In this document: positions 2,571-63,257 of the stretch, in pieces
Layout of the letters: the number at the start of each line of letters is the position of its first letter
Numbering within the stretch: the first letter of the stretch is position 1
NCBI GenBank assembly: GCA_907163375.1
Contig: CAJQUW010016163.1
Coordinates: forward strand, 1 to 64,000
From: Prostheceraeus crozeri
Taxonomy: Eukaryota; Platyhelminthes; Polycladida; Euryleptidae
Direction: 5' to 3'
DNA: 64,000 nt
The notes under the pieces: generated by a model
What the model was told of the DNA's origin: nothing
The model's database searches: none
Seen by the model: only the letters and a program-made list of their open reading frames with translations
Position numbers and translations under genes: made by a program

Positions 2571-2577
2571 CACGGTG
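2571..2577 (+). other. RSS-heptamer-like end, CACGGTG
   Basis: The terminal seven bases CACGGTG differ from the V(D)J heptamer CACAGTG by one transition, and keep the CAC that is critical in RAG cleavage. The mirrored copy is at 5764-5770. A spacer of about 12 bases is followed by gttttggat, which is only weakly AT-rich and does not match the nonamer ACAAAAACC. I therefore do not call a full RSS. Confidence 0.55.
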
Positions 2578-3006
2578 CGTCTGAATGAGGTTTTGGATTA
2601 AAAAAATATATCATCGCCGAAACCAAATTTTTTGACCTTAGTGACCCTCTAGGAATGGGAAATGAGCAAAAAGAAAATCTTTTAAAGCACAGATTTTTAT
2701 CTACGGCCTATTTTCAAAATGGCAGCCATTTTTTCGTAAAAATCGCATGTCTAATACATTTATTAGGACTTAAGGCATGCTACGTCACATGAATTAGCAT
2801 TTTCTGATCACAGCAGAGTAATTCATGCAATAGTTAAAATCATAGAAGGGTGCCATACAGTTGAACTACTGTTTATAAGTAGTGTGTCGTGTCTTGTACA
2901 GTATTTCTTAACTTCAGAATATAATGTCGATAAAAAATGTTTTATTTGCTACTTTCGTTTGAAGGTGAATTTATCCCGGTCAGACAAAGCAAAAAGTCAC
3001 AAATTT
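2571..3006 (+). repeat. Left terminal inverted repeat of RAG1-like element
   Basis: This stretch is the reverse complement of 5336-5770, with about eight substitutions and two single-base length changes in A-runs. The outermost bases are CACGGTGCGTCTGAATGAGG. The inner edge lies at the segment reading gacaaagcaaaaag. Near-identical repeats on such a frame-broken gene point either to a recent non-autonomous insertion or to repeat homogenisation. Confidence 0.9.
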
Positions 3007-3249
3007 TACTGAAATACACTGAACAAAACAAAGCTCGTGTTCAGGGTTGAGTAGCTTTCTATGTTCTAACAAAATAGACATTCGCATAAATTCAAATATT
3101 AGCTTGCACATTTCTATGGTACATATGACGCAGCATGTTGTTCATGTTGCAATGTATTTGAATGGGTACTGAGAGCTATGAATTGATTTTTGCAACATCC
3201 AAGCTTAAATCAGACGTGAAGTGTCGAAATTCATTAGTACACCAGTAAG
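3007..3249 (+). other. Non-coding leader between TIR and RAG1-like gene
   Basis: About 240 bp of AT-rich sequence separates the inner edge of the left inverted repeat from the first ATG. No open frame or clear core promoter motif is visible. Transcription of the transposase would have to start here or inside the repeat. Confidence 0.4.
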
Positions 3250-5270
3250 ATGGCTGCGGCAGGTGATGAAACTGCGATAGACGCCGTTGACAGAAGTCAC
3301 AATGAAAATAGAAAACACGTTTGCGCCGTTTGCTATCGCAAGGGATCTCGGAAGCTTTCTGCTACGGATGTCAGGAGTATTCAGGACTTCGTCATTGATG
3401 GCTACGATCGAGAAAATCCTAACTTTCCGGAGGCATTGTGCAATGGATGTTATTTGCTACTTTCCAAAATGCGGAACGGACATGAAGTGAGCTTACCCCT
3501 GTCTGATGATTATGATCCTCGTCGGCCAATTATCCTTCGTTCACCATCTGCGTGTTCTTGCCGAATTTGTTGTGTTGCTCGAGTTGACAACCAGGACGCC
3601 GTAAGGATGAAGAAATCTCCTGGTCGTCCATCGAACAAGGAAACCATTACAGCAGCATCGAGTTTCAAGGTATGTGTTCCTTGCTTCTCGAAACTTTATC
3701 GAGGATGTTCTCATACAAGAGAATCTTGTCTATCAAAGCGCCAAAAGATATCCAACATTGACCATCTGTTGAACTCCTCCAGCAAAGTGACAGAACAACG
3801 AGTTGCTAGCCGAATCATCGACGACGTGGGAACATCTCTTTCAACATTAAGTTGTAAGACCAAGAATACAATGACTTTGAAATCGCCTACTCAGTTGTCG
3901 GCGGTCGATCTTTCTCACATTCAAACTGATTTGAGTTTGAGTGATAGGCAAATGTCTAAGTTTAGTAAGAATATTCGTTATGCCACCGAGTCTCGAACTG
4001 TTATTGAACCCGGGCTAAAGTCCAAACTATCCAGAGCCACCCAAGAGTTTGATGAACTGTTTGCTGTGGAGGAATTGGATTTCCTCTGCCTTGCAAAAGA
4101 TGAAGTGAGCGATAGATGTTCCAGATCTGCAGTTTTCTGCAAAGATGTTGATGAACTAATTGATCGAATTATGACCAAGAGGAACTTGAGTAGATATGAT
4201 TTGCTCATTCGCATTGGTATTGATGGAGGTGAGGGGGGGTTCTCAAGATCGGTCTATCAGTCTTTGAATTAGATGAGCAAGGTCCGACTTCTCAATCCCG
4301 CCGTTACCTGTCTTCAGGATTAAGTTGCACGTTCAAAGACTCCGGTGTCAAGCGTTGTATGATAGTAGCATTAGTACCAGATGTTCAGGAAAATTACAAC
4401 AATGTCAAATTGTTGTGGAACAAAGCAGGATTGAATGCTATGCGGCACAAATTTTCCATTGCATGTGATTTTGTGCAACATGCTTTTAGGGCTCATGCCA
4501 CATGGAAGCAAGCATCCATGTAGCTGGTGCACTGCGGAAAAAGGCAGAGTAGGAGTTATAGGTGCTCCGCGGACAATGGCTTCTCTGAGTGATCAGTTCT
4601 GGAAATATCTTGAGTCCGGTAGACTAGGGACAAACGAAGTGCAATGAAATTTACTAATGTCATTCATCCGTCCATAGTGCACACATCAGATTCTTCCACT
4701 CCCATTATTGAAAGCATCCCCCTCCAGAGCTTCATCTGCTGTCTGGACCCACAGCTACACTTTTTTGTGGTCTTGAGAAGGAATGGAGTAGTGCAGAATT
4801 GTGGCTACGTAAATGCAATGTAGTGCCTAAGGCAATGCACGGAGGCACCTTCACTGGAAACAGTGGCAGGAGTCTCTTGCGCAATGTCGATTTACTTGAG
4901 GCGATGTGTCCAAATAATTCCAGTGTCTTGAAATTTGTGACGGCCTTTCGTTGCTTCAATGATGTTGTGACTTCTTGCTTTGGAGCTTCCCTGCAGCCAC
5001 AATTCAGGAGATACATCAGTGAGTTTCAGGCGGCATATGAACAGCTGCCTCTGAATGTGACTCCCAAGATCCACGCTATCATATTCCATGTACCAGAATT
5101 CTGTGAGTACACACGAAGAGGACTCGGCCAATACAGTGAGCAATGTATTGAGTCTCTACATCACAGTTTTGCAGACACATGGAAAAGCTTCAAAATTTTT
5201 TGAAAATCATCTCCAGTTTTCTGATCGATTGTTGCGATTTGTTTGTGTTTATAATTCCAGATATATTTGA
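3250..5270 (+). pseudogene. RAG1-like transposase, frameshifted
   Basis: RAG1-type proteins are RNase-H-fold DDE recombinases that nick and hairpin DNA at heptamer ends. The first frame (3250-4272) has paired cysteines at residues 25/28, 64/67, 102-108 and 142/145. Their spacing and context resemble the RAG1 N-terminal zinc-binding region. An SPGRPS motif (residues 123-128) resembles the GRP minor-groove motif. The first catalytic Asp is in IGIDGG (codon 4222). After frame shifts come the second Asp in IACD (codon 4467), CSWC (4519-4530), PPELHLLSGP near 4721, GGTFTGN, FHVPEF with HxxxxH, and the Glu in CIES (codon 5150). In RAG1, CxxC, HxxxxHVPE and SEGNE occupy the same order. Shifts occur at a G7 run (4233-4239), near 4470, 4620-4655 and 4720, and in a T6 run near 5200. 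The last frame ends at 5270. Confidence 0.82.
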
Positions 5271-5335
5271 TGAATTATTTTTTATGATGCTTGTCCTGTT
5301 CGTGTTTTCTGAATGAATACATGTTTATTTCATCA

Positions 5336-5770
5336 AATTTGTGATTTTTTGCTTTGTCTTACCGGGATAAATTCACCTTCAAACGAAAGTAGCAAATAAA
5401 ACATTTTTTTATCGACATTATATTCTGAAGTTAAGAAATACTGTACAAGACACGACACACTACTTATAAACAGTAGTTCAACTGTATGGCACCCTTCTAT
5501 GATTTTAACTATTGCATGAATTACTCTGCTGTGATCAGAAAATGCTAATTCATGTGACGTAGCATGCCTTAAGTCCTAATAAATGTATTCGACATGCGAT
5601 TTTTGCGAAAAAATGGCTGCCATTTTGAAAATAGCCCGTAGATAAAAATCTGTGCTTTAAAAGATTTTCTTTTTGCTCATTTCTCATTCCTAGAGGGTCA
5701 CTAAGCTCAAAAAATTTGGTTTCGGCGATGATATATTTTTTAATCCAACACCTCATTCAGACGCACCGTG
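5336..5770 (-). repeat. Right terminal inverted repeat of RAG1-like element
   Basis: This is the mirror of 2571-3006. It starts about 65 bp after the end of the RAG1-like reading frame and ends with CACCGTG on the plus strand (5764-5770). Its outer edge cuts into the C-terminal end of the Polinton-like frame on the minus strand: the motif CELCSF is host to the junction, and the residues that follow are encoded by the repeat. Confidence 0.9.
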
Positions 5771-7056
5771 AAACTACATAACTCGCATGTTTCAAAACGT
5801 TTCACTTGTGTTTGGTTCATGTTCCGATACCACATGCGAGAACATTTCTGAAAATCCGTCACGGGAAGAAAATGTCCAGACTGATCCTCCATATCGTACC
5901 GCGTCACCATCACCAGATGAACGATGCGTGTGTTCTCCTTCACAGCTTGACGGACCGGGTATAATTGGCCCACAAATCCTTTACTGTCATGTACGTGGAT
6001 ACGAACAATGACATTGTTCTTCTTTTCGAACTCCTGAATATCCCGTGTATTCATCAACCCCTCTGACGTCATCATGGAAAAGTCTAGATGATAATACTGG
6101 TTCAAATTCAACTTGCGGACTTCAGGAAGTCGATTCTGATAAATGTCATAGGATGTCTTGGTGCGGGAATCAACACGTTCACGACGTCGAGGAATGCGAT
6201 TGTCTTGGTAGGCAAGTGCATAGAGGACACTGTCTTGAAAACAATGTGATGTATGCGTGTTGCGCTCAAACACACATATGCCTTTGCAGAGCTTGATATC
6301 TCGGTGGATAGGAATCGGTGCGCCCATGCGAAAATTAGGGAAGGAACTTGTTTGAACCAGTAACTCCAACACTTCCTTCACCGCAAATCCTGATCCGTCT
6401 TCTCGATAGTCTTCAATAAATTCTTCAAACTTTGACACAATGTCACCGAACCATGTATCAAAGTTACGTGCTTGGACGCCTTCGTGAATGTATGAGGGTG
6501 TGGTGATGTCTCTCACTTCCTCTTCGCCCGTCGACATATCCATCTTGGCAAACCTGAGTCTCATACTCACAAACACTTTCACATCCTCGTGGGGGTGTTG
6601 TTGCACATGACACGATACAAGTCCGCATACATTGAATTCAAATATGTTTTCCATTCATTCGTGGCTTGAGGAGGGGTAAATCGATAATTATATCCGCGAC
6701 CGTCCATGATACGTTCTTCTTCCACAGCTGCACCACCCTCTTGCATGAACTCAAACAGCTAGGGACAGAAATGTTCATCCCATCCTTCCGCTTCAGCATT
6801 CACCACTGCATCACAGTAGCGACACCGTCCCACACACGCATGCTTATGGTACGCCTCCACGTCGAAACTTCCGTCGCAATCCAAACACAGCAAGTCATTG
6901 TCATCGCCATAATTAAACGCGCGGCAATCGTGCTCGTCTCCATACCATTTACAGCATGTCCAACAATAGTTGCGACCTGTCTCCATGGGCTCCATGGGCA
7001 ATACAGTCTTGAAACCGAGAGAAGGACTGACGGCAGAATTCACACGCGTACTGCAT
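5771..7056 (-). pseudogene. Polinton/adintovirus-like gene remnant (zinc fingers plus PolB-type N-terminal region)
   Basis: The minus strand from an ATG at 7056 begins with a C2H2-like finger (CEFC...HGAH). In another frame it continues with a cysteine-rich region (YCWTCCKWYGDEHDC, LCLDCD, CRYCD), reaches an in-frame TAG near 6757, then runs on to a long open stretch (5771-6654). That stretch holds YREDGSGFAVKEVL, a HCFQDSVLYAL block, IQEFEKKNNVIVRIHV and QLYPVR. These blocks match the region preceding type-B DNA polymerase in Polinton/adintovirus-like proteins. At least two frameshifts (near 6990 and 6605), one stop, and truncation by the RAG1-like element after CELCSF make it a fossil. The polymerase domain is absent. 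It could instead be a related large-DNA-virus relic. Confidence 0.42.
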
Positions 7057-20147: not shown

Positions 20148-21439
20148 CTATTCAATCGCTGAGGCAAAGTCAATACTACGTTGCCCTAAGCTTGTCCTAT
20201 GAAATGGTATCCGGAGGTTAACTTTATTTCTTAATGAGCTGCCACTCTGGGGTTTGTGGATGTTTGTGTGACTTCGTTTTCCTTGGTGAAAGATAAGAAT
20301 GCAAAAGTTTAATATACAATGTATATTGGCAAAATATATCTTTAATAGACATTCTAGTGGAAGGCATCGTCTTAAGTTGTAAAATATAGGTAAGAATTTT
20401 CTTAATTTGGTATTAAGTATCGTATTTGCATGTGAAGTGAAACTCAAATTCATGTCTATATGTACAGCCAATAGTTTTAAGCAATTTACTCTATTAATCT
20501 TTGTTTGGTTTTGGTACAAATCCTGGTCTATTTCTTTAGAGCGATGGGGATGAATTATCATATATTCCGTCTTGTTATCATTAAGACGGATGCCATTTGC
20601 CTTACTGAATTTTTCCAGTGAGTCTAATCTGCTTTTTGCCGTGGAAAAGAGACTTTCTAGGCTTCTGCTCTTAAGTATAAGAGTGGTGTCATCAGCAAAT
20701 ATATTCAATTCGTCTTTGGGGAAAATGTTATGCATATCATTAATGTAGATAAGAAATAGAAGAGGACCTAAAGTTGAACCTTCAGGTACTCCTGTTTTGG
20801 TATATAATGCTTCAGAGAGAACACCATTTACTACAGTCTGATGACTTCTGCTGTTTAAATACGACTTGAACCAGTCTAAGGTAAATCCCCTTATTCCTAT
20901 ATGCTCTAACTTCTCTATTAGTATGTCATGTCTTATTATTTCAAAGGCCTTCCGAAAATCTGCTGATAATAACATTATAAATTCTTTAGCTTCTACTGCT
21001 GTATATATTCTATTCATGACGGAGAGTAGTGATAGCTCTGTTGAGTGATGTTCTCTGAAACCGAATTGATTTGGACTGAGAAACTCTATTTTATCTAAAT
21101 AACTGTATAATTTGGAGTGTATAACCTTTTCGAGAATCTTGTCTACGTAGCTAAGTAAAGAGATTGGTCTGTAATTGTTTATGTCCAATCTTGATCCTTT
21201 TTTATAGACTGGTATAATTTTGGAGGTTTTTAAAGTAGTTGGCATGTTACCATCACGTACTATTTTGTTTAAAATGTAAGTAAGTCTATCGATCACATGG
21301 TCCGGACATAGTTTAAAGATTTTCAATGGTATTTTGTCATTTGTAGCTTTTTTATCATTCATTTTAATTAGTATGTCTTTTATTTCTTTTGACTCTATTT
21401 CTCTGAAGAGAAAAGGACTTGTCTATGCGCTTTCCCAAA
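20148..21439 (-). pseudogene. LINE ORF2, reverse transcriptase half
   Basis: RT motifs in order: MNDKKATNDKIPLKIF (finger), NNYRPISLLSYVDKILEKVI, NQFGFREHHST, LLSADFRKAFE (motif A, with Ser for the usual catalytic-region hydrophobic), TGVPEGSTLGPLLFLIYIND (motif B) and LNIFADDTTLIL (FADD motif C). The thumb and tail follow. It is joined to the endonuclease half across the pogo insertion at the TA target. Removing the insertion restores the sequence to within one base of a continuous frame, implying a single-nucleotide loss near 21410. Confidence 0.8.
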
Positions 21440-21441
21440 TA

Positions 21442-23664
21442 CCGTAAGATGGGGTAACTCTGCCATAGTTTTTGATCGTATGATGCTCATATTCTTTCCT
21501 GTTGCATACTTATTTTATTTAAGAGTGACGCTTAGACCAATTGTGTCGTCCACTTTGCGAATTAAACACTCATAATTAATTCTGGATAGCTATTCAAGCA
21601 CATATTTAGGTCATAAAATAGGCTAGTGACTTCTCAGAATATGGGGTAACTCTGCCACTACATTTAAATAATTTATAAAATACAATTAAATGTCTTTTTA
21701 CTGATAACTATAATTGATCAATGTGTCTATGAAGTTTCACAAAGTCCCTTAGAAATGTAAGTTGATGAGTTTTGTTGCAAACGGTTATATTATTTGGTTG
21801 AATTGTCTATAATAATGAGACAAAGAAGAACATAGGCCTATTCCAAAGCAATTCTGTATTAGTACAAATTCAATCAAAATAATTGTTCAATTTTCGAGTA
21901 CAAAAATTCCGCTCTATTTGCAGCTACCGCAAACAAAATAAACGTCATAACTGTAACAATTTCCACAGTACCATTTCAAACATTCAAGACACTGCACCCA
22001 ATCCGGTCCTTCAAAACATCTCCACAAAACGAAGCAATGGGCACATGAAGAGCCATCATCATCATCGAATTCGTCATAAAATGAGTCGTGTCGACTAGAA
22101 GTTGGTTCATCTCGCACTCCGGATGAAGTCGCTCCTTCATTTACTGAAATGGTTGTTGTAATATCCTTACCTGGTTGTATCTTCCTTCCACGCTTGATTT
22201 TAGGCTTCTCAGTCGTTCCCCAACCTCGATTTTCTTTCAATAGGTCAAGAACACTTTCATTGAGCACCTTCACCATTTCACTGGATTCAGTCTGACCGGG
22301 AAGTCTGCTCAACACCGCACGTTCATCAAATGGTACGAGACCAGTTGCTCTGAATGCTGATTGAAGATTCTTCTGTGCGTTGATTGTGGATTGCGACCAC
22401 AACCTATGGAGAAGTGTAGGAAAATGTTCTTTGGGAATACTGCCGATTCTGCGACTCTCAATGCGCCATTGGTCCAAAATTCGTCGCCAAATTGCTTTGA
22501 ACGGCCGAAACCATCCCACATCCAAAGGTTGAGTAAGATGCGTACTATTGGGAGGAAGTGAAGCAAAGTACACATTATGTTCTTTTGTGAGTTCAATAAC
22601 GTCGGGCGAAAAATGACAGGCTAAATTGTCGCCTATCAGAACTTTGACTTTTCCATCTAGAGAAGGTCTCTTCTTCACGAATTCTAGGAAGCCACATTTG
22701 AACCAACGAGCGAATGTCCTTGAATCAAACCAGCCGCATTGCGTGGAATCATATAGGGTATCTGAAGGACCTCCGCTGCACCAGTTCTCATAAATATTTG
22801 TCGCGCGATAAACGACCATTGGTGGAAGCAACGTTCCATCTGCACAACCATAAACCATTATAGAGACCGATGTATTGGAGTGTTCTTTCACGCGCTCTAC
22901 ACGGCGAGTTCCTCTCCTTACGAGTACCTTCTTTGACCCAGGATCATCAGAAAGGTTAGTCTCGTCGTAGTTGAATATCTGACTTGGCATTATGTTCTCC
23001 ATAACATTAGATAAATTCGAAAAATACTCTTTGATCTCCTCTGGATCGACTCGAGAGCGGGCTCTTTTGATGTTACTGGCTCTCCGAAATACAATGCTAT
23101 GACGAGTCATGAATGACCGAACCCAGTCTATACCTGGTAGATTGTTCTGGAATCTTGATTCCACTCTTCCAGACTTGTCTAAGAAAGATTTGACGATAAT
23201 TCTCAAGTCGATGACAGATAGGGGATAACCCCAATCAGCGATTTGTTGGATGGTTTCTACCAGCAACTTCTCTTCGACAACATCTAAAACCGATGGTCGA
23301 CCCACCTTAGATTGGTGTCTTCCATCTAACCGGGAACCTAATGTTCGCCTCGGAACATTGTTATCTGCTGCGGACTGCTGTATGCTTTTTGAGCGATCTT
23401 CCACCTCTTGCATAGCTTTGCTCATTTGTTCGTCACTCCACGGTCGATATGGACGACCACCATCTTTTCGTACGTAGTTACGCGGCATGATCGATGAAAT
23501 GACTGTTCACAGTTAGGGAACATCATCGATAGTAGACGAGTGAAAGTTGAGAGTTGAACATCCAATCAGAGATCAGCAGTCAACAACAATAGTGACAGTG
23601 CTGTTGAGAGTTACAATAAAGTGGCAGTGTTACCCCATTGTGGCAGAGTTACCCCATTTTACGG
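21442..23664. mobile_element. Pogo-superfamily element (level 4, innermost), apparently complete
   Basis: The ends CCGTAAGATGGGGTAACTCT and its near-mirror (CCGTAAAATGGGGTAACTCT) are flanked by TA (21440-21441 and 23665-23666). The 2,223-bp element holds one long intact minus-strand gene. The near-perfect ends and open frame make it the youngest layer of the stack. Confidence 0.9.
21914..23488 (-). CDS. Pogo-type DDE transposase with C-terminal PHD-like zinc module
   Basis: An intact 524-residue protein that would bind the element ends and carry out cut-and-paste at TA. Residues about 10-55 form a Psq-like helix-turn-helix (RPWSDEQMSKAMQEV, RTLGSRL). A CENP-B-type second DNA-binding region follows. 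The catalytic Asps are in IFNYDETNLSD, VLIGDNLACHF and LTQPLDVGWF, with 35 residues between the second and third. The C-terminus (residues about 475-524) is Cys-rich: CAHC, WVQCLECLKWYCGNCY, CGSC, resembling the PHD-like finger of jerky/pogo-derived transposases. No inactivating lesion is visible. Confidence 0.88.
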   Translation of the reverse strand: MPRNYVRKDGGRPYRPWSDEQMSKAMQEVEDRSKSIQQSAADNNVPRRTLGSRLDGRHQSKVGRPSVLDVVEEKLLVETIQQIADWGYPLSVIDLRIIVKSFLDKSGRVESRFQNNLPGIDWVRSFMTRHSIVFRRASNIKRARSRVDPEEIKEYFSNLSNVMENIMPSQIFNYDETNLSDDPGSKKVLVRRGTRRVERVKEHSNTSVSIMVYGCADGTLLPPMVVYRATNIYENWCSGGPSDTLYDSTQCGWFDSRTFARWFKCGFLEFVKKRPSLDGKVKVLIGDNLACHFSPDVIELTKEHNVYFASLPPNSTHLTQPLDVGWFRPFKAIWRRILDQWRIESRRIGSIPKEHFPTLLHRLWSQSTINAQKNLQSAFRATGLVPFDERAVLSRLPGQTESSEMVKVLNESVLDLLKENRGWGTTEKPKIKRGRKIQPGKDITTTISVNEGATSSGVRDEPTSSRHDSFYDEFDDDDGSSCAHCFVLWRCFEGPDWVQCLECLKWYCGNCYSYDVYFVCGSCK

Positions 23665-32870: not shown

Positions 32871-34197
32871 TTCGTCAAGAATTGCCCCGACAAATGTACT
32901 TCAATGTAGATTTTACAGGAATTCCAGGAATAAAAAACTTTGAAAAGTCATGATATCGTGATTTGTAAATGAAAATTTGGTCTTTGTTAAGGGTTTGCAA
33001 TTCTAGAGTTGAAGATTATTTTGATAAAAATGCTTATTTCTAATCAAGAAATTTTGATAAAAACGCTGGCTTCATCCACTTTCCTATAAGCCGATGTCAG
33101 GATCCGTTTTCATACTGAATGAATAAAAATCCGAAATAATGCATATCATCCGTACTCACGTTGAATTCTCATCGACGGTGCCAAAAATAAATGTTCTCCC
33201 ACAAGTTGCCCTAGGCAAGTATATACGAGTACATAACTTTCACGCAGGTTTATATTTTCATCAGGTGACTAACAATGTACTGATCATTTGTGTCGATTAA
33301 CATCAGTCGCTAAAATCAATGCTAAACAGATGATAAAACCAACATAAATTTAGTCATGCGTTTTCGTCAATCATCTAATGAGACTTCGAGTGAACCAAAT
33401 ATGTTTAGAAAGTTTTAAAACTTGAGGTGAGATGTCACTTTTAGGTATCAGTTATATTTTAGCACAGTCAATCTATAAGGTGAAGGCCATACGCTAAAAT
33501 GAAAATGATAAATGCCAGTAATTAAATCAAAATAAAGTTTTATCATCCATAAATTCCATTACACGTTTAAAATGCAATAAACAAGTCTTTTGCAGACATA
33601 CTGCTTGTAGTGTGTAGAGCAGGGGTTCCCAAACAACGAACCGCGGCATCATCTTCACGGACCGCTATGATCTCGTGATGAACACACTACATATGATCTC
33701 CTCTAAGCTTATTCTGCTATCGATCTGGCCTAATCTGTTTTTTAAGGATGTAAGTCACAGATTCCATTTGAACCAGACTTGAGTTCTATTTCTTCGAAGC
33801 ACAACCAGCTTCATGCATCGCATCAATTCGTTCTTGATGGATCCCTTTTTGCAGGTGGCGCACGTAAACCGCCGGATTTTAAACTTTTATTACTCCTCAA
33901 ATATTCATCCGATCGTCATGAAATTTCGACTCATACTAGTTTGGAGTATAGGATTTATGATGATTATACCTGTTGTACTGAGCATTGTCAGAAAATTCTG
34001 ATTCTATTGACCGAATGACATGTACTCATTTTGTTGACATCGAAAATCTAGATCAAGTTAATTAACTTAACATGAATCGTATTCTGCACAACGAATTGTG
34101 CGCAGTCTTGAAGTGAATATTGTTCAGTTACTTCCATGTCATATAAAATACCATTCGACGATTAAATCACTATCTGAAAAGAATCGAACATAGAAGA

Positions 34198-35253
34198 ATG
34201 GATGATTATTCGGTTGCAGAAAGAGTAAAATGCGCGGCTTGGTACGAATGGCTCAAGAGTCCAGTGGAGGTACAAAGGCTTTGTCATTCAGAGTATGGCA
34301 AGAACGCGAGAGCACCGGATGCCCGTACCATAAAGCGGTGGCACACAAACCTGTTGACCAGTGGTAGTGTGATGACTGTCAAGCGGGACCGGTCATCTTC
34401 TGAACGAACGGAGCAGAATGTGGAACGAGTTGTGCAGCACTTCGAGGAGGACCCAAACACATCTACCCGTCGTGCATCTAATGCTCTTCAAGTCAGTCGC
34501 CGCACTATCCAGTGCATCCTCCATGACTATGGATGGCATCCGTACAAGGTCCAGGTGGTGCAGCGATTACACGAAGAAAATCTGGAAAACCGAATTGAGT
34601 TCGCAGAACAGGAGCTACAGCGCATCCAAGCCAACCCGAGCCATTTAGTGGAACTAACCTGGTCCGATGAAGCTCACTACCATCTGGATGGTGGTGTGAA
34701 TCATCACAATTGTCGTTATTGGGCCAACCAGAACCCTCACTGGATCAAGCAAGAGTCTATGCACTCGCCACGCACCACCGTCTGGGCGGCAATCAGCCAA
34801 TCAGGTATCTACGGACCGTTCTTCTTCGACACCTCCGTCAACAAAAATCGGTATCTCAAGATGCTACAGGAGGAATTTTGGCCAGCGGTGCAGTCGGACA
34901 GAAGAGGCAGGAGCATCATATTCATGCAGGATGGTGCACCTCCACACTGGGGACTTCCTGTGCGTGAGTGGTTGAACAAGAAGATGCCTAACAGATGGAT
35001 GGGACGTGGATCTCCTAACATGCCCTGGCCACCGCGTTCACCTGACCTGACGCCTTGCGATTTCTTCTTGTGGGGCTTTGTCAAGTCCAAGGTTTACCAT
35101 ACACGGTCAACATCCATGCAAGATCTGAAGGACCGTATCATACAAGCATTTCAAGAAGTGACAACTGAGATGTGTCGAGAAACTGCTCTGGCCTACCAAA
35201 AGCGACTCGAATCCGTCCTCGAGAATGGAGGAGAACACGTTGAAGTTCGATGA
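34198..35253 (+). CDS. Tc/mariner-group transposase, intact (351 aa)
   Basis: A complete frame from ATG to TGA. The N-terminal helix-turn-helix region includes VAERVKCAAWYEWLKSP and ARTIKRWHTN. A second helix-turn-helix is STRRASNALQVSRRTIQ. The catalytic Asps are in LTWSDEAHYH, IFMQDGAPPHWG and LTPCDFFLWG. There are 42 residues between the second and third catalytic Asp, one more than in the VS/rosa DD41D group it otherwise resembles; the extra residue lies in GSPNMPWPPRSPDL. No premature stop. It would act on its own inverted repeats. Confidence 0.9.
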   Translation: MDDYSVAERVKCAAWYEWLKSPVEVQRLCHSEYGKNARAPDARTIKRWHTNLLTSGSVMTVKRDRSSSERTEQNVERVVQHFEEDPNTSTRRASNALQVSRRTIQCILHDYGWHPYKVQVVQRLHEENLENRIEFAEQELQRIQANPSHLVELTWSDEAHYHLDGGVNHHNCRYWANQNPHWIKQESMHSPRTTVWAAISQSGIYGPFFFDTSVNKNRYLKMLQEEFWPAVQSDRRGRSIIFMQDGAPPHWGLPVREWLNKKMPNRWMGRGSPNMPWPPRSPDLTPCDFFLWGFVKSKVYHTRSTSMQDLKDRIIQAFQEVTTEMCRETALAYQKRLESVLENGGEHVEVR

Positions 35254-49249: not shown

Positions 49250-51967
49250 TTAGAAGTTACAATAAAACATAAAAAGCTTTCGTTTAAACTGTTTCACCGT
49301 TTCACTGTTCACAATATCGTCGGGGAGGCGGTTCCAGTCATCTATAATGCGGTGGGAAAAAGAGGATAGGCGACAATTCAGATTTGTTGGGTGGCGGAAA
49401 ATTTTGTAGTTATGTCCACGGGTTCGGGAAACACTAAAGGTGAAGAAGGAATTAGGATCACTTGGAGTAAGGTGGTTACATATTTTGAACACGGTTGTAA
49501 GGTCCATAATCCGACGACGACATTGTAGTGTTGGGAGTTTCAGAGCTCTCAGTCTTTCTTCGTAGGGTAACGAGGATAGACCACGGATGCTTTTGGTGAA
49601 TCGACGTTGTACACGTTCGATAGCCAGAATGTCTTTATTCAGGGATGGATTCCAGACTGGGATGGCATATTCGAGTTGAGGGCGGACCAGTGTCTTGAAG
49701 AGACGAATAAGCAGATCGGCGTCCCGAGAGACGAATGTCCTGAGGATGGCAGATACAATGCGATTCGCTTTCTGAACACAGGTCAGAATGTGCCGAGAGA
49801 ATTTTAGGTCTTTTGAAATCAGAACTCCAAGGTCTTTGACACACTTGGAATTATTCAGGAAACTTCCATCCAGACGGTAGTCCGAGGCTGGATTGCGAAA
49901 TCCAAAGTGTAGAATGGAGCACTTTTGGGGATTGAGCGATAGCTGCCATTTCTTCGACCAGGTGGTTACAGCGTTGAGGTCAGCTTGCAAAAGTTCTTTG
50001 GCTTTCAGGGGATCAGTGCGCTTGATTTCGGAGTACAATTTTACATCATCAGCATATTTCAATAAAGAAGAGTTTGTCAAGGTGTCATCAATGTCATTAA
50101 TAAAGGCGACAAACAGATCTGGGCCTAAAACGGATCCCTGGGGGACACCAGAAATCATGCTGTAGGGGGAAGAATGCACACCATCCACGACAACACTCTC
50201 AGTTCTATCCTCAAGAAAAGCTTTCAGAAAACATAGAAGTCTCCCTCCAATGCCCAAGGAAGTCAATTTCGAGAGGAGACGAAAGTGAGGGACTGAATTG
50301 AACGCTTTTTCAAAATCGAGATAGATGACGTCAGCCCACTGACCGCGATCCACAACAGATGTTAAATCCTCGAGGAATTCTAAGAGCTGGTGGGTACTAG
50401 ACGAATTGGATCGAAAACCAAATTGAGAGCGCTTGATTATGTCATATTGGTTCCAGAACTGCCACAGGTGATCGCGAACAATCGACTCCATCAATTTGGA
50501 GGCAGTACAAGTCAGGCTGACCGGACGGTAATTCTCTGCCTTCTTGCGACAACCTTTCTTATGTATAGGAGTAACCAGAGCGTGCTTCCAGACTAGCGGG
50601 ATATTCCCCAACTCAAAAAAGATCTGGAAAAGGCGAGCAAGAAGTGGAAGCAGAACAAAAGCACCTTGTTTGTAGCAGATATATTGAATGCCATCAGGGC
50701 CAGGGGAGGAGAAATTCTTCTTATGTGATAGGTGGAAGCGAATTCTATCAGTTGTGAAGACTACATCAGCGAGGCAATGATCAGTTTGTGCATGAACAGC
50801 AGGTATGGGAAGAGACTCAGAGGTGAAAGCAGATTTGTAGGAATCACCAAGAATAGTAGCTGAGTGTAGGGGATCATACACTACTCGGTCTGTGGACGGG
50901 TCGACAAGCGCACCAACGGTGGATCGAACCTTTTGTTTAGATTTTACATAGTTCCAGAATCGCTTAGGATTGTCACTGTTAGCCAAAGATAATTCAAAAT
51001 TGTAAATAGATCTGCGGATTGCTTGTTTCAAGAGGTTAGATGTATGATTGCGCAAACGTCTAGCCTCTTCAGATCTGGTGTCAAGGAAGATACGTTCCGC
51101 CCTTCTGCGCTGTAGTTTTAAAGAACGAATTTCTGGAGAATCCCAAAGAGGTCTGTTACTTCGAAGATAATTTTTGGTTGGAACTGCTGACGATAAAGCA
51201 CCGTGAATAGCGGATTGAAAAGAAGCCCATATCTCATTCACATCTTTGTGCTGGAAGCAACTTTCCCAGTTATTGGAACCGAGAATGGAACGGTACAAGT
51301 CCCAATCAGCTTGCTTAAAATTATAACGAGGAGTCGACTTGGAAGAAATTGGTTTTCTTTCTGCAGAAAAAGCCAGTTCAGCCAAGACCATATTGTGATC
51401 TGAAGAGGCTAGAGGTTCAATTACATCAACGCGAGTAACAAGATCAGGAGTGGAGCAGAATAACAAATCCAATATATGCTCTTCGCGTGTAGGTTCAAAG
51501 ACAGTTTGGTAGAACCCTGACTCAACAGTGCAAACAAGAAAATCTTCTGAGTCTTTGTTGGAAGAAAGTGTCTCCCAGTCAATGTGGGGGAAATTAAAAT
51601 CGCCACTTATTAGCTTAAACTGATGGGGAAGGGAGGAGGCTTCATGGAAGAGCTCGAATAGGACACTGTCATTAGCTACTGATGAATTAGGAGGACGATA
51701 AACCACACCTACAAGAATGGAAGATTTATTCTGAAGATAAACTTCAGCCCAAACACAATCACTGAAGTTCGAGCTGTTAGCGACATCCAAAGCACAAGAC
51801 TGAAGTGAGTCCTTAATGTAAAGGCAAACACCACCACCGCGACTACCACTGCGACGATCAGATCTGAATAATTTAAAGCCTGAAATTTGAAATAAAGCAT
51901 CATTAAAATTTTTATTTGCCCAAGTTTCAGTGACAGAGATAATATCTGGTTGGAGGTCAGAGATATA
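49250..51967 (-). CDS. LINE ORF2: endonuclease C-part plus reverse transcriptase
   Basis: Uninterrupted from the mariner insertion to the stop. Endonuclease blocks: IISVTETWANKNFNDALF, SRGGGVCLYIK, ILVGVVYRPPNSS, LISGDFNFPHIDWE (GDFN), HILDLLFCSTPDL and ASSDHNMVLAEL. RT blocks: KNFSSPGPDGIQYI, AENYRPVSLTCTASKLMES, SQFGFRSNSSST, VIYLDFEKAFNSVPH, SGVPQGSVLGPDLFVAFIND and LLKYADDVKLYSE. The tail ends FYCNF. It joins to 53564-53645 across the mariner in perfect frame via a duplicated TA. No in-frame ATG precedes the SDHNMV motif, so the endonuclease has no start codon of its own. Confidence 0.88.
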   Translation of the reverse strand, partial: YISDLQPDIISVTETWANKNFNDALFQISGFKLFRSDRRSGSRGGGVCLYIKDSLQSCALDVANSSNFSDCVWAEVYLQNKSSILVGVVYRPPNSSVANDSVLFELFHEASSLPHQFKLISGDFNFPHIDWETLSSNKDSEDFLVCTVESGFYQTVFEPTREEHILDLLFCSTPDLVTRVDVIEPLASSDHNMVLAELAFSAERKPISSKSTPRYNFKQADWDLYRSILGSNNWESCFQHKDVNEIWASFQSAIHGALSSAVPTKNYLRSNRPLWDSPEIRSLKLQRRRAERIFLDTRSEEARRLRNHTSNLLKQAIRRSIYNFELSLANSDNPKRFWNYVKSKQKVRSTVGALVDPSTDRVVYDPLHSATILGDSYKSAFTSESLPIPAVHAQTDHCLADVVFTTDRIRFHLSHKKNFSSPGPDGIQYICYKQGAFVLLPLLARLFQIFFELGNIPLVWKHALVTPIHKKGCRKKAENYRPVSLTCTASKLMESIVRDHLWQFWNQYDIIKRSQFGFRSNSSSTHQLLEFLEDLTSVVDRGQWADVIYLDFEKAFNSVPHFRLLSKLTSLGIGGRLLCFLKAFLEDRTESVVVDGVHSSPYSMISGVPQGSVLGPDLFVAFINDIDDTLTNSSLLKYADDVKLYSEIKRTDPLKAKELLQADLNAVTTWSKKWQLSLNPQKCSILHFGFRNPASDYRLDGSFLNNSKCVKDLGVLISKDLKFSRHILTCVQKANRIVSAILRTFVSRDADLLIRLFKTLVRPQLEYAIPVWNPSLNKDILAIERVQRRFTKSIRGLSSLPYEERLRALKLPTLQCRRRIMDLTTVFKICNHLTPSDPNSFFTFSVSRTRGHNYKIFRHPTNLNCRLSSFSHRIIDDWNRLPDDIVNSETVKQFKRKLFMFYCNF

Positions 51968-53563
51968 CGAGGGTCGTTCCGGAAGTAATGCCTCCTAATT
52001 TTTATCAAAAAAAGTAGAAGAGATACGGGTATGACACTTATACCATCAAAACAGGCTTGGTTTTGTGTACCAGAATCATTATTTTCATAGACATAACATC
52101 AATGAACGCCATTATAGAGATAAATGAAAACAATCAATATAAAATGAGACGACGAAAATTTTCACAAAAGATATCTATTTTTCGACATATTCACCACAAA
52201 GTTGAACACACTTTTGCCAACGATGAACAGGGGCCGTTATCCCTTGCTCGTAAAAGGCAGCTCCAACTAAGGCAGTCCACTGCTTTACAGCTCTGATGAC
52301 GGCGTCCTTATCTTCAAAGTGCTGACCTCGCAAACCGTCCTTCAGTGGCCCGAACAAATGAAAGTCCGATGGAGCCAAATCGGGGCTATACGGTGGATGC
52401 GGCAGCACAGTCCAGCCGAACTTCTCGATGCAGTCTCGTGTTCTTATGCTTGTATGGGGTCTGGCGTTGTCGTGCTGTAAACAGAATGTCTTCTTCTTCT
52501 CTGGCCGCTTTCGAGAGATGCGGTCCTTAAGCTTTGTCAACGTCTCGATGTAGCGGTCTGAGTTGACAGTTGTCCCAGGCTCCAAGAAGTCCAATAAGAT
52601 GATGCCCTTGTTGTCCCAGAAGACAGTACACATCACTTTTCCGGCAGATGGCTGCGTCTTAAACTTAACCTTTGATGGTGAGCCGGTATGATGCCATTCC
52701 ATAGACTGCCGTTTCGACTCAGGCTCGTAGTGGTGACACCACGTTTCTGTGATCGTCATCCTTCGATTCTCGCGAATCAGCTGGTCGAGGCGCTCTGCGT
52801 TTTCATCATTGTTGGCAGTGGAAGGTCGTCCTGAACGAGGTTTATCACACACATCTGTGTTGCCGCATCGAAATCGGCGAACCCATCTCCTTACTGAGCT
52901 CACGTCAACCGCTTCGGTTCCATAAACATTGACCAAGCGCCGATGAATGTCAATTGGCGAAACGTTTTCAGCGGTTAGGAATTCAATGACACATGTCTGC
53001 CTTTGATGGACGTCCATGATTAATTTGATAATTTGATTCCAACTACTGCTTAAGAGATACCTTGTCAACAGATTTTTTCGTATCGTGACGCAATTCGAAT
53101 AAACAATGCAATACTGCTTCAATCAATCAATTTGATTTCACCAACCTCATCGGGACGCGCGGCATCCGTGATTTCATCAGCTTTTTCAACGCGCGCGCCT
53201 TAAAATGTGACGGTTACACGACTTCTCGCTTATGGCGTCGATGCGTGAAACACAGACATCAACAATGTCTGGTTATGACAAATGGTTTCAATCTGATCAT
53301 AAAGGACAGAAGCCTTAAAAACAAAGGTGAAAAAACAAAGGTTAAAAACAAAGGTTAAAACAAAGGTGAAAATTTTCGTCGTCTCATTTTATGTTGACTG
53401 TTTTCATTTATCTCTGTAATGGCGTATATTGATGCTAAGTCTATGAAAATGATGATTCTGGTACACAAAACCAAGCTTGTTTTGATGGCATAAGTGTCTT
53501 TTCTGTATCTCTTTTACTTTTTTTGATAAAAATTAGGAGGCATTACTTTCGGAACGACCTTCG
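51968..53563. mobile_element. Mariner-type element with ~195-bp inverted repeats
   Basis: The ends CGAGGGTCGTTCCGGAAGTA and, inverted, CGAAGGTCGTTCCGAAAGTA have TA on both sides (51966-51967, 53564-53565). Inverted similarity extends through gtacacaaaaccaagcttg-type sequence to about 52163 and 53365. A short tandem run of acaaaggttaaaa units lies at about 53319-53372. The gene is on the minus strand. Confidence 0.92.
52175..53017 (-). pseudogene. Mariner transposase with in-frame internal deletion
   Basis: Starting at MDVHQRQTCVIEFL the frame is 280 codons against roughly 345-350 in mariner transposases. The helix-turn-helix region (SPIDIHRRL, SSVRRWVRRF, KPRSGRPS) is present. At residue 91 the text jumps from MTITE to TWCHHYEPESKRQS. 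The roughly 65-70 residues that normally end in GDETW, with the first catalytic Asp, are missing. The later Asps (LQHDNARPH and APSDFHLF, 34 residues between) remain. The deletion is in frame, but the protein cannot form the DD34D site. Its open frame with two of three Asps could bind ends without cutting. Confidence 0.88.
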
Positions 53564-60251: not shown

Positions 60252-61013
60252 ATGTCCTCAACCAAGGATATTTTATCTTTGACGGATGAAGAATTGATTG
60301 CAAGAAAGAGTTCTATAACTAAGAGTGATCTTATGCAAGCTTTAATGCAGTTACGTTCATCTTCACGTCCCTCTGACAGTGGAATTGACATTGGTGCATT
60401 TTCGGATCTACTCGAAACGAAACTAAAAGAAACAATTGATCCTCTTTTATTAAAATTGGACAGCTTTGCTGAGGAGAACAATAAACTGAAAGTCAGATTA
60501 CTGAATGTGGAGAACGAACTAAAGGATATCAAAGATTTCAAAGAAGACGTAACGTTAGATCTATTTCAAGAATTGTCTGAACGTTTTCGCAAAGAGAAGA
60601 ACGTTGTGATTTCTGGAATAGAGGAATCAACTACTGGCTCTCAAGATGACAGAATTGCTTTCGATCGGTCAAAGTGTGACGCATTGCTAAAGATTCTGGG
60701 TTCTTCCGTTGATGCTGTTGAAGAAATTCGACGACTTGGTAAGGCTCCATCGTCTGGCTTTCGACTTACGCTGGTCAAGTTCAAGTCCGATGATACCAAA
60801 CGCCTTGTTCTTCGTAATTCGAAAAAGCTCCGTGATCATGCAAACTATAAGAAGATTTACATCAATCATGACAGAACGCGTCGGCAGCAGATGATTGACA
60901 AAGATTTACGTGATCAGCTAAGGCATAGAAGGAGTCAACAGGAAGACGTCGTCATTTACAAAGGGAAAGTTGTGCTTCGTGATGAAATTCAAAATTTTCA
61001 TGCAAGATTTTAA
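60252..61013 (+). CDS. LINE ORF1 protein (coiled coil plus RRM-like), intact
   Basis: 253 residues with no lesion. The N-terminal half is helical (LSLTDEELIARKSSITKSDL). It is followed by a coiled coil with heptad Leu/Val (LLLKLDSFAEENNKLKVRLL). The C-terminal half has a VVISGIEES strand, KILGSSVDAVEEIRRLGK, and FRLTLVKFKSDDTKRLVLRN, resembling the RRM-like/CTD region of LINE ORF1 RNA-binding proteins. It would bind element RNA. The 20-nt gap to ORF2 contains gtagtagtagt. The ATG is the first in the frame. Confidence 0.7.
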   Translation: MSSTKDILSLTDEELIARKSSITKSDLMQALMQLRSSSRPSDSGIDIGAFSDLLETKLKETIDPLLLKLDSFAEENNKLKVRLLNVENELKDIKDFKEDVTLDLFQELSERFRKEKNVVISGIEESTTGSQDDRIAFDRSKCDALLKILGSSVDAVEEIRRLGKAPSSGFRLTLVKFKSDDTKRLVLRNSKKLRDHANYKKIYINHDRTRRQQMIDKDLRDQLRHRRSQQEDVVIYKGKVVLRDEIQNFHARF

Positions 61014-61033
61014 GATCTGTTTGTAGTAGTAGT

Positions 61034-62513
61034 ATGAAGTATTTCCCTAAGTTCATGTTGCTTAATGCTCAATCCCTTCTAAAGAAAATCGACGAATTGC
61101 GTATTATTGTTTCTATGAAGCTGCCCGATATTGTATGTGTTTCCGAAACGTGGCTAAATGACTCGGTTACAAGCTTTTATGTTGATATTGATCATTTCGC
61201 TTCGCTCCGATGCGACCGCCTCTCCCGAAGAGGTGGTGGCTGCATGGTTTATGTTAGAAATACCTTAAATTTTGAGGAATTTGTTCTTCCTGTTGCTATA
61301 CCCTCAGGTATTGAAGTATGTGCTATTGTCATAAAATCCATTAAACTTTTTGTTTTGACTGCATACGTACCACCGAATCTCAATGCGTGTACTCATACCG
61401 AAGTTTTGCTTTTCTTTGTGAACATCATTGACAATTTTATGATTCAATTTCATGACTTCTATGTTATGATCTTAGGTGATCTTAATAACTTAGATACCAG
61501 CTATCTTTGCACAGAACTTCAACTTTCAAATATTGTTAGCAAACCTACTCGCGGTAACAGTGTATTAGACTTTATCCTTGTGTCAGATTTTTTGTCTGAC
61601 ATCTACCTTGCTGACAATGTGTGTTACAATTCGCCTCTTGGCAACTCCGATCATCAGATATTATGCTTGTCTCCAGCTTCTGATCCTCTACAGAACTCTA
61701 ATCCCAGTCCCCGTCTTGTGCCAGTATATGACCTTCGTCCTTCATCCATACTAAAACTTCGAGAAGCTTTTAAATGGTTCTCAACTACTGAAGGTCAGTC
61801 GATACTCAGTACTACCAATGTGGATGAGCAATGTTCTTTATTTCTTGGCTGTCTACACAAATTAGTGGATACTTATGTGCCTCTATCGTATGTTTATCTA
61901 TCTACGACAGACAAAAAGTGGATGACTCCAATTACAAAGAGCATTATTAATTCTAAATGGCAAGCTTACCGTAATCGTAATTGGTCGGTCTACAACAAGC
62001 TAAAAGAAAAAGCCAAAGATGAAATCTTACGTGCAAAACGCATTTGGGCAGACAAGCTAAAACGATCCAGCAAAAGTATTTGGAAAATTTCTGGTGAACT
62101 CATGAAATCCTCTTCTCGCAATACTGCTCTGGTCGAACAATTATCACATTGTGGCGATAAGCATCTTATTATCTCCACCATTCGGGACTCATTCCTCTCA
62201 AATCAAGTGAACATACCTGTTTCTAGAGATTATGAAGAGCTCGCACCATCTCGGATCATGCTTGTTAATGATCCATGGGATTTTGACATTTCTCCGTTAT
62301 TGGTTTATAATATCCTGTCAAACTTAAAGCCTGGGGTTTCAAAATCTCTGGACAATGTTCCCAATTCGGTATACCGTGAATTAGCCGATCTCCTTTCCGT
62401 TTATGTTTGCTCCATTATCAAGAACTCTATTAAATCGCACTGTTTTCCATCTTGCCTCAAAGTCGGTGTCACCATTCCAATACCCAAATCAAGTCCTGCT
62501 AAAATTGGTAATA
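61034..62513 (+). CDS. LINE ORF2, endonuclease and first RT motifs
   Basis: The ATG starts KYFPKFMLLNAQSLLKKIDE. APE endonuclease blocks follow: LPDIVCVSETWLND, SRRGGGCMVYVRN, LTAYVPPN, MILGDLNNLDTSYL, SVLDFILVSDF and LGNSDHQILCLSP. A Lys-rich linker comes next, then the first RT motif, NLKPGVSKSLDNVPNSVY, and LKVGVTIPIPKSSPAKIGN. The frame is clean up to the foldback insertion, which adds a premature stop inside the MITE at 62560. Restoring one TA target makes the join read in frame into NLRPISILP. Confidence 0.85.
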
Positions 62514-63257
62514 GTCCGGGAGCTAGCGTGAAGTTGTGCAGGGAACGAGGTAGTACATAAAACTTTCACATAGCATAGTACACCTCTAACCTACTGCAAA
62601 ACTTCGCGTCTGCCGGATCAGATCATTTGCTTTTCAGAAATAGAGAGGATAACACAATCCTATGTATTTCCAGTGGTAAAATTGTGACATTTAAGGTGTT
62701 GACTCCATTTTTTCGAATTTTTGCTCATAAAAGTTACACAAATTGGTATTTTGTTGAACTGGTTATTATAGAAATCATCTACAGATCATGATCTTTCAAA
62801 TGAGTTATTATTCAGTGACAGAGGATAAAGTAAAGTGTACAAACAGACACTTTTCGCTAAAGTACATTAACAATTTTCCTGAAATTTCTATGTCAAAAAT
62901 TGCAGTTACACCAACGAAAAGTGTCTGTTTGTACACTTTACTTCATCCTCTGTCACTGAATAATGACTCATTTGAAAGATCATGATCTATAGATAATTTC
63001 TTTAATAACCAGTTCAACAAAATACCAATTTGTGTAACTTTTATGAGCAAAAATTCGAAAAAATGGAGTCAACACCTTAAATGTCACAATTTTACCACTG
63101 GAAATACATAGGATTGTGTTATCCTCTCTATTTCTGAAAAGCAAATGATCTGATCCGGCAGACGCGAAGTTTTGCAGTAGGTTAGAGGTATACTATGCTA
63201 TGTGAAAGTTTTGTGTACTACCTCGTTCCCTGCACAACTTCACGCTAGCTCCCGGAC
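62514..63257. mobile_element. 744-bp foldback MITE, copy 2, inserted in LINE ORF2
   Basis: Exactly the same length as copy 1 (14820-15563), with arms highly similar throughout. The unique centre (about 62857-62914) is the reverse complement of copy 1's centre, so the element lies in the opposite orientation. The ends are GTCCGGG inward with TA outside. Confidence 0.92.

Follow-up and report, generated by a model that had tools for sequence, protein, structure and literature searches.

A decayed, probably Chapaev-type transposon of Prostheceraeus crozeri and the predicted kinship of its transposase with RAG1

The first 64,000 nucleotides of contig CAJQUW010016163.1 of the flatworm Prostheceraeus crozeri (assembly GCA_907163375.1), hereafter the window, contain at positions 2571–5770 an element of 3,200 base pairs (bp), which is very probably an animal DNA transposon of the cut-and-paste, Chapaev type, present here as a decayed copy. 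The element is bounded by terminal inverted repeats of 436 bp, the left one (2571–3006, + strand) starting with CACGGTG and the right one (5335–5770, − strand) terminating in CACCGTG, and 427 of the 437 positions in their alignment are identical. When folded as a single strand, the left end shows nothing unusual (z 0.65). Compared by eye, CACGGTG differs at one of seven bases from CACAGTG, the heptamer of the recombination signal sequence.

The transposase of this copy is split over five + strand pieces with shifting frames. Piece 1 (3250–4236) holds the N-terminal zinc clusters and the start of the core, including the first catalytic aspartate (codon 4222–4224, within IGIDGG); piece 2 (4239–4472) holds the second aspartate (4467–4469, within IACD); piece 3 (4474–4634) carries the zinc cysteines CSWC (4519–4530) and is followed by piece 4 (4635–4717). 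Piece 5 (4718–5203) contains PPELHLL, with its LH pair at 4730–4735, GGTFTGN (4841–4861), the HxxxxH motif HAIIFH (5072–5089), SEQCIES, whose second glutamate (5150–5152) occupies the catalytic E position, and the stop. The order D, D, CxxC, LH, HxxxxH, E is that of RAG1, and every motif listed in the initial annotation, which was made from the sequence alone, was found where it had been placed. Five pieces in shifting frames mean that the window copy is broken and, since the frame is interrupted in several places, its transposase gene is dead and the element is unable to act through its own gene. Among frames of at least 100 amino acids (aa), read from stop to stop and lying wholly between the ends, only the transposase pieces were found; shorter frames were not searched.

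When the pieces were joined into one query, with X marking the frame breaks, 43 proteins matched at E ≤ 0.001 out of 7,999 candidates scored; the best match shares 66% identity with the query along 100% of its length. A profile search found 118 proteins. The relatives have transposases of about 640–690 aa, and the organisms named in their source labels include Pseudolycoriella hygida, Psylliodes chrysocephalus, Brassicogethes aeneus, and Macrostomum lignano. Conservation was counted in the 54 proteins of at least 600 aa among 137 listed (P0004–P0140), with gaps scored as misses. All 54 have both aspartates, both CxxC cysteines, and the LH pair; the two histidines of HxxxxH occur in 50/54 and 49/54 (three of the misses being gaps in each case), the catalytic glutamate in 48/54 (five of the misses being gaps), and the N-terminal CxxC clusters in 49–53 of the 54. 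Because it is conserved across these 54 members, the motif set is more than a chance occurrence.

For the window's transposase pieces, a Pfam scan returned nothing beyond Mating_N, which stayed below threshold (E 0.0061). Pfam DUF1280 matches 14 of the 43 family members (best E 7.1e-5), so this uncharacterised family may be related to Chapaev-type transposases. In a scan of viral contigs, none of 20 pattern matches was confirmed as a relative, so carriage by viruses is unsupported in those contigs, and a phage collection contained no DNA match to the element.

The element belongs to a repeat family in a genome searched over 2.05 Gb in 14,165 contigs, which yielded 378 first-look candidates. 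Of these, 40 were scored, the best of which are 93–96% identical across nearly the full element length, and 28 loci were read, representing 27 distinct copies (L028 is the same place as L003). CAC...GTG is present at both ends in 20 of the 27, the window copy included, and 14 of the 27, all with CAC/GTG at both ends, are flanked by exact 4-bp target duplications of varied sequence. A full-length transposase frame occurs in none of the 27 copies read, though intact ones may exist among the unread copies. The longest frame belongs to L012 (666 codons, followed by 473 codons in the next longest); its length fits an intact copy, but its first CxxC and final E are out of frame, and it was rejected as such. 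In L007, the flanks are mutually reverse complementary over the 30 bases compared, which places this copy within a palindrome that arose either by fold-back rearrangement or as an artefact of the assembly.

In the window copy, the target-site duplication is absent: the flanks of the junction read CCAT (2567–2570) and AAAC (5771–5774). A 304-aa open frame (5740–6654, − strand) stops just within the right end of the element. Its product presumably looks like the N-terminal portion of DNA polymerase B from a Polinton-type element; a Pfam scan of the frame gave no significant match, and by eye no continuation of it is visible in the element's left flank. Together, the missing duplication and this frame suggest a later rearrangement, and it is likely that one flank of the window copy was rearranged after insertion.

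The relation of the transposase to RAG1 was addressed by profile and fold comparison. In a profile–profile alignment of the family core with RAG1 (120 sequences), all seven catalytic and zinc positions were paired; between family member P0004 and mouse RAG1 the pairs are D328–D600, D408–D708, C427/C430–C727/C730, H610/H615–H937/H942, and E636–E962, where the mouse numbers, in part those of the initial annotation, are 8 lower than in the RAG1 protein P0141. The global score was 37.7 (E 4.6e-7, probability 87%); none of 60 column shuffles reached it, as they averaged 3.2 and peaked at 11.9, and the reversed control scored 4.0; the local score was 40.0 (E 3e-4, probability 40%), with controls reaching at most 26.2 and, reversed, 15.2. 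These values are to be read against a narrow RAG1 alignment, since the 120 sequences listed, of 232 found, are labelled nearly all as vertebrate RAG1, which limits the test. The match stands out only when the cores are cut out, and whole-length local hhalign gives three short colinear matches of very low probability. An AlphaFold model of one family member has its best fold matches in RAG1, HzTransib, and BbRAGL, with RAG1 chains at the top of the list.

The proposal of the initial annotation that the gene carries a RAG1-like catalytic and zinc set in RAG1 order is thus upheld by motif order, by the profile alignment, in which D, D, and E stand in equivalent positions, and by the predicted fold. 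Spacing supports it in part: comparing RAG1 (P0141) with P0004, several distances towards the C-terminal half of the core agree, with H–H at 5/5, H–E at 20/21, D2–CxxC at 19/19, and CxxC–LH at 68/70, whereas D1–D2 (108/80), LH–GN (56/41), and GN–H (86/72) diverge. RAG1 was not found when the PDB was searched by sequence, by phmmer with single pieces and with profiles; the best profile hits there, to tropomyosin, were chance, coiled-coil-like matches. At this distance, only alignment between hidden Markov models and fold comparison detect the kinship. By these two approaches the transposase is a distant relative of RAG1, and its core has the features of the RAG1 core (the predicted fold, D, D, and E, and the C2/H2 zinc ligands in order), which Transib and the wider group share.

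The N-terminus of the family has three CxxC clusters, which can be aligned with those of RAG1. The resemblance pointed out in the initial annotation therefore stands as far as alignability goes, but its profile match is weak (score 24.2, probability 4%, E 0.01, where shuffles reached at most 19.1 and the reversed control 19.2). Kapitonov and Koonin reported that Chapaev transposases carry the Chapa domain of the RAG1 N-terminus and that the Chapaev core is only distantly related to that of other Transibs, and inferred that domain and core were fused in a common ancestor (PMC4411706, 2015). The zinc clusters of this family are tentatively equated with that domain, a correspondence that is suggestive. 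The RING finger (ZDD) that follows the zinc clusters in RAG1 was not recognised: at E values up to 10, neither P0004 nor P0006 matched a RING family, and one Prok-RING_1 match (E 0.01) appeared among the 43 members (25 of 45 families listed). A reading of the RAG1–Chapaev link through the zinc-finger associated domain (ZAD) was not found in the open-licence papers searched.

Chapaev transposons were reportedly treated by Kapitonov and Jurka in 2007. A later account characterises them by CAC/GTG ends, target duplications of 3 to 4 bp, and the motifs C(2)C, LH, and H(4)H (PMC4079192). The family described here shows the same ends and motifs, the latter around a D–D–E site, together with 4-bp duplications and N-terminal zinc clusters. 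It is on the duplications and the CAC...GTG ends that the element is filed under Chapaev and not under RAGL or Transib. In two Chapaev subgroups a RING is described (PMC4411706), whereas none was recognised in this family. The Chapaev3 elements (Merrow, Conan, and Garfield) share the CAC/GTG ends, the motifs, and a published N-terminal Chapa domain; they differ in the TWA 3-bp duplication given for them in the same account (PMC4079192), where varied 4-bp duplications, not TWA between A and T, are found here.

With RAG1 and the RAGL (ProtoRAG) elements the family shares the fold of the core, the order of its residues, some of the spacing, and three alignable N-terminal CxxC clusters. That the element is instead a RAGL element with RAG1 alone, belonging to the RAG1L lineage but with its RAG2-like gene lost or never present, would agree with the RAG1 chains heading the fold list and with the N-terminal CxxC clusters, a zinc region that canonical Transib is described as lacking (PMC8355894). 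However, RAGL, like RAG and Transib, almost always makes 5-bp duplications (PMC7204232), whereas 14 of the 27 copies here have 4 bp and one (L021) matches over 5 bp; moreover, the PDB searches that miss RAG1 contrast with mouse RAG1, which finds BbRAGL at E 4.6e-74, and no RING was seen in the members scanned. The RAG1L–RAG2L pair of RAGL was not encountered among the frames of at least 100 aa described above. The initial annotation had thus seen correctly that no RAG2-like gene is visible between the ends, but membership of the RAGL class, which the 4-bp duplications and the Chapaev marks oppose, is extremely improbable. A Transib in the narrow sense, which has a similar core fold, the motifs, and a single-gene organisation, is just as improbable, given duplications of 4 and not 5 bp and the conserved N-terminal zinc region. 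N-RAG-TP of Aplysia is also a transposon with a RAG1-like N-terminal zinc region; it is described as having N-terminal-like sequence only (PMC8355894), and is set apart by this description from the present protein, in which that region and a RAG1-type core stand together.

Several observations weigh against the assignment to Chapaev or against the link to RAG1. Membership rests on anatomy, compared with published descriptions rather than with a Chapaev reference alignment or tree. The duplication of L021 spans 5 bp, the flanks of L016 agree at three of four bases, and the window copy, L007, L010, and L015 keep both ends without a duplication. Besides the weak N-terminal profile match, none of the Pfam models for RAG1 was hit by P0004 or P0006 at E values up to 10. 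With named Chapaev proteins compared by description only, and with ESTA, Plavaka, and Lanisha as lineages still being named in the CACTA–Mirage–Chapaev–Transib (CMC) group (PMC12730594), the family might form a separate lineage of this group, beside Chapaev and not within it. This is highly unlikely, as duplication length, ends, and motifs agree with those published for Chapaev, and the zinc clusters at the N-terminus are compatible with the Chapa domain. A Chapaev-type transposon is the preferred reading.

Elsewhere in the window, long open frames of other DNA transposons comprise a DDE_1 frame of 530 aa (21914–23506, −), a frame of 368 aa with a Tc1-like helix-turn-helix match (34147–35253, +), and a mariner-type Transposase_1 frame of 315 aa (52175–53122, −). 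Non-LTR (long terminal repeat) retrotransposons are represented by frames that encode reverse transcriptase domains, endonuclease-type domains, or both, at 20148–21422 (−), 49250–51994 (−), and 60986–62560 (+).

An intact member of the family would use its RAG1/Transib-type core to bind and pair the two inverted ends, probably aided in DNA binding or subunit pairing by the N-terminal zinc clusters. The conserved residues and predicted fold point to an RNase-H-like D–D–E site braced by the CxxC/HxxxxH zinc site, which would cut beside CAC; by analogy with RAG1 and Transib, nicking followed by flank hairpin cleavage is the likeliest chemistry. The ends would then be inserted at target sites cut with a stagger of 4 bp, whose product is visible in the duplications around sibling copies.

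The link to RAG1 drawn in the initial annotation was right in kind, but the bearing of such elements on RAG1 ancestry, the N-terminal zinc domain included, had already been argued in 2015 (PMC4411706), and the element is most likely a further, decayed member of a known transposon type. While a direct ancestor of RAG1 is not identified by it, it adds an animal family that fits the Chapaev branch, and the AlphaFold model lends predicted, fold-level support to a RAG1/Transib build of such a core. It thereby bears on whether the N-terminus and core of RAG1 originally belonged to a single transposon, the view argued by Kapitonov and Koonin, or were joined later.
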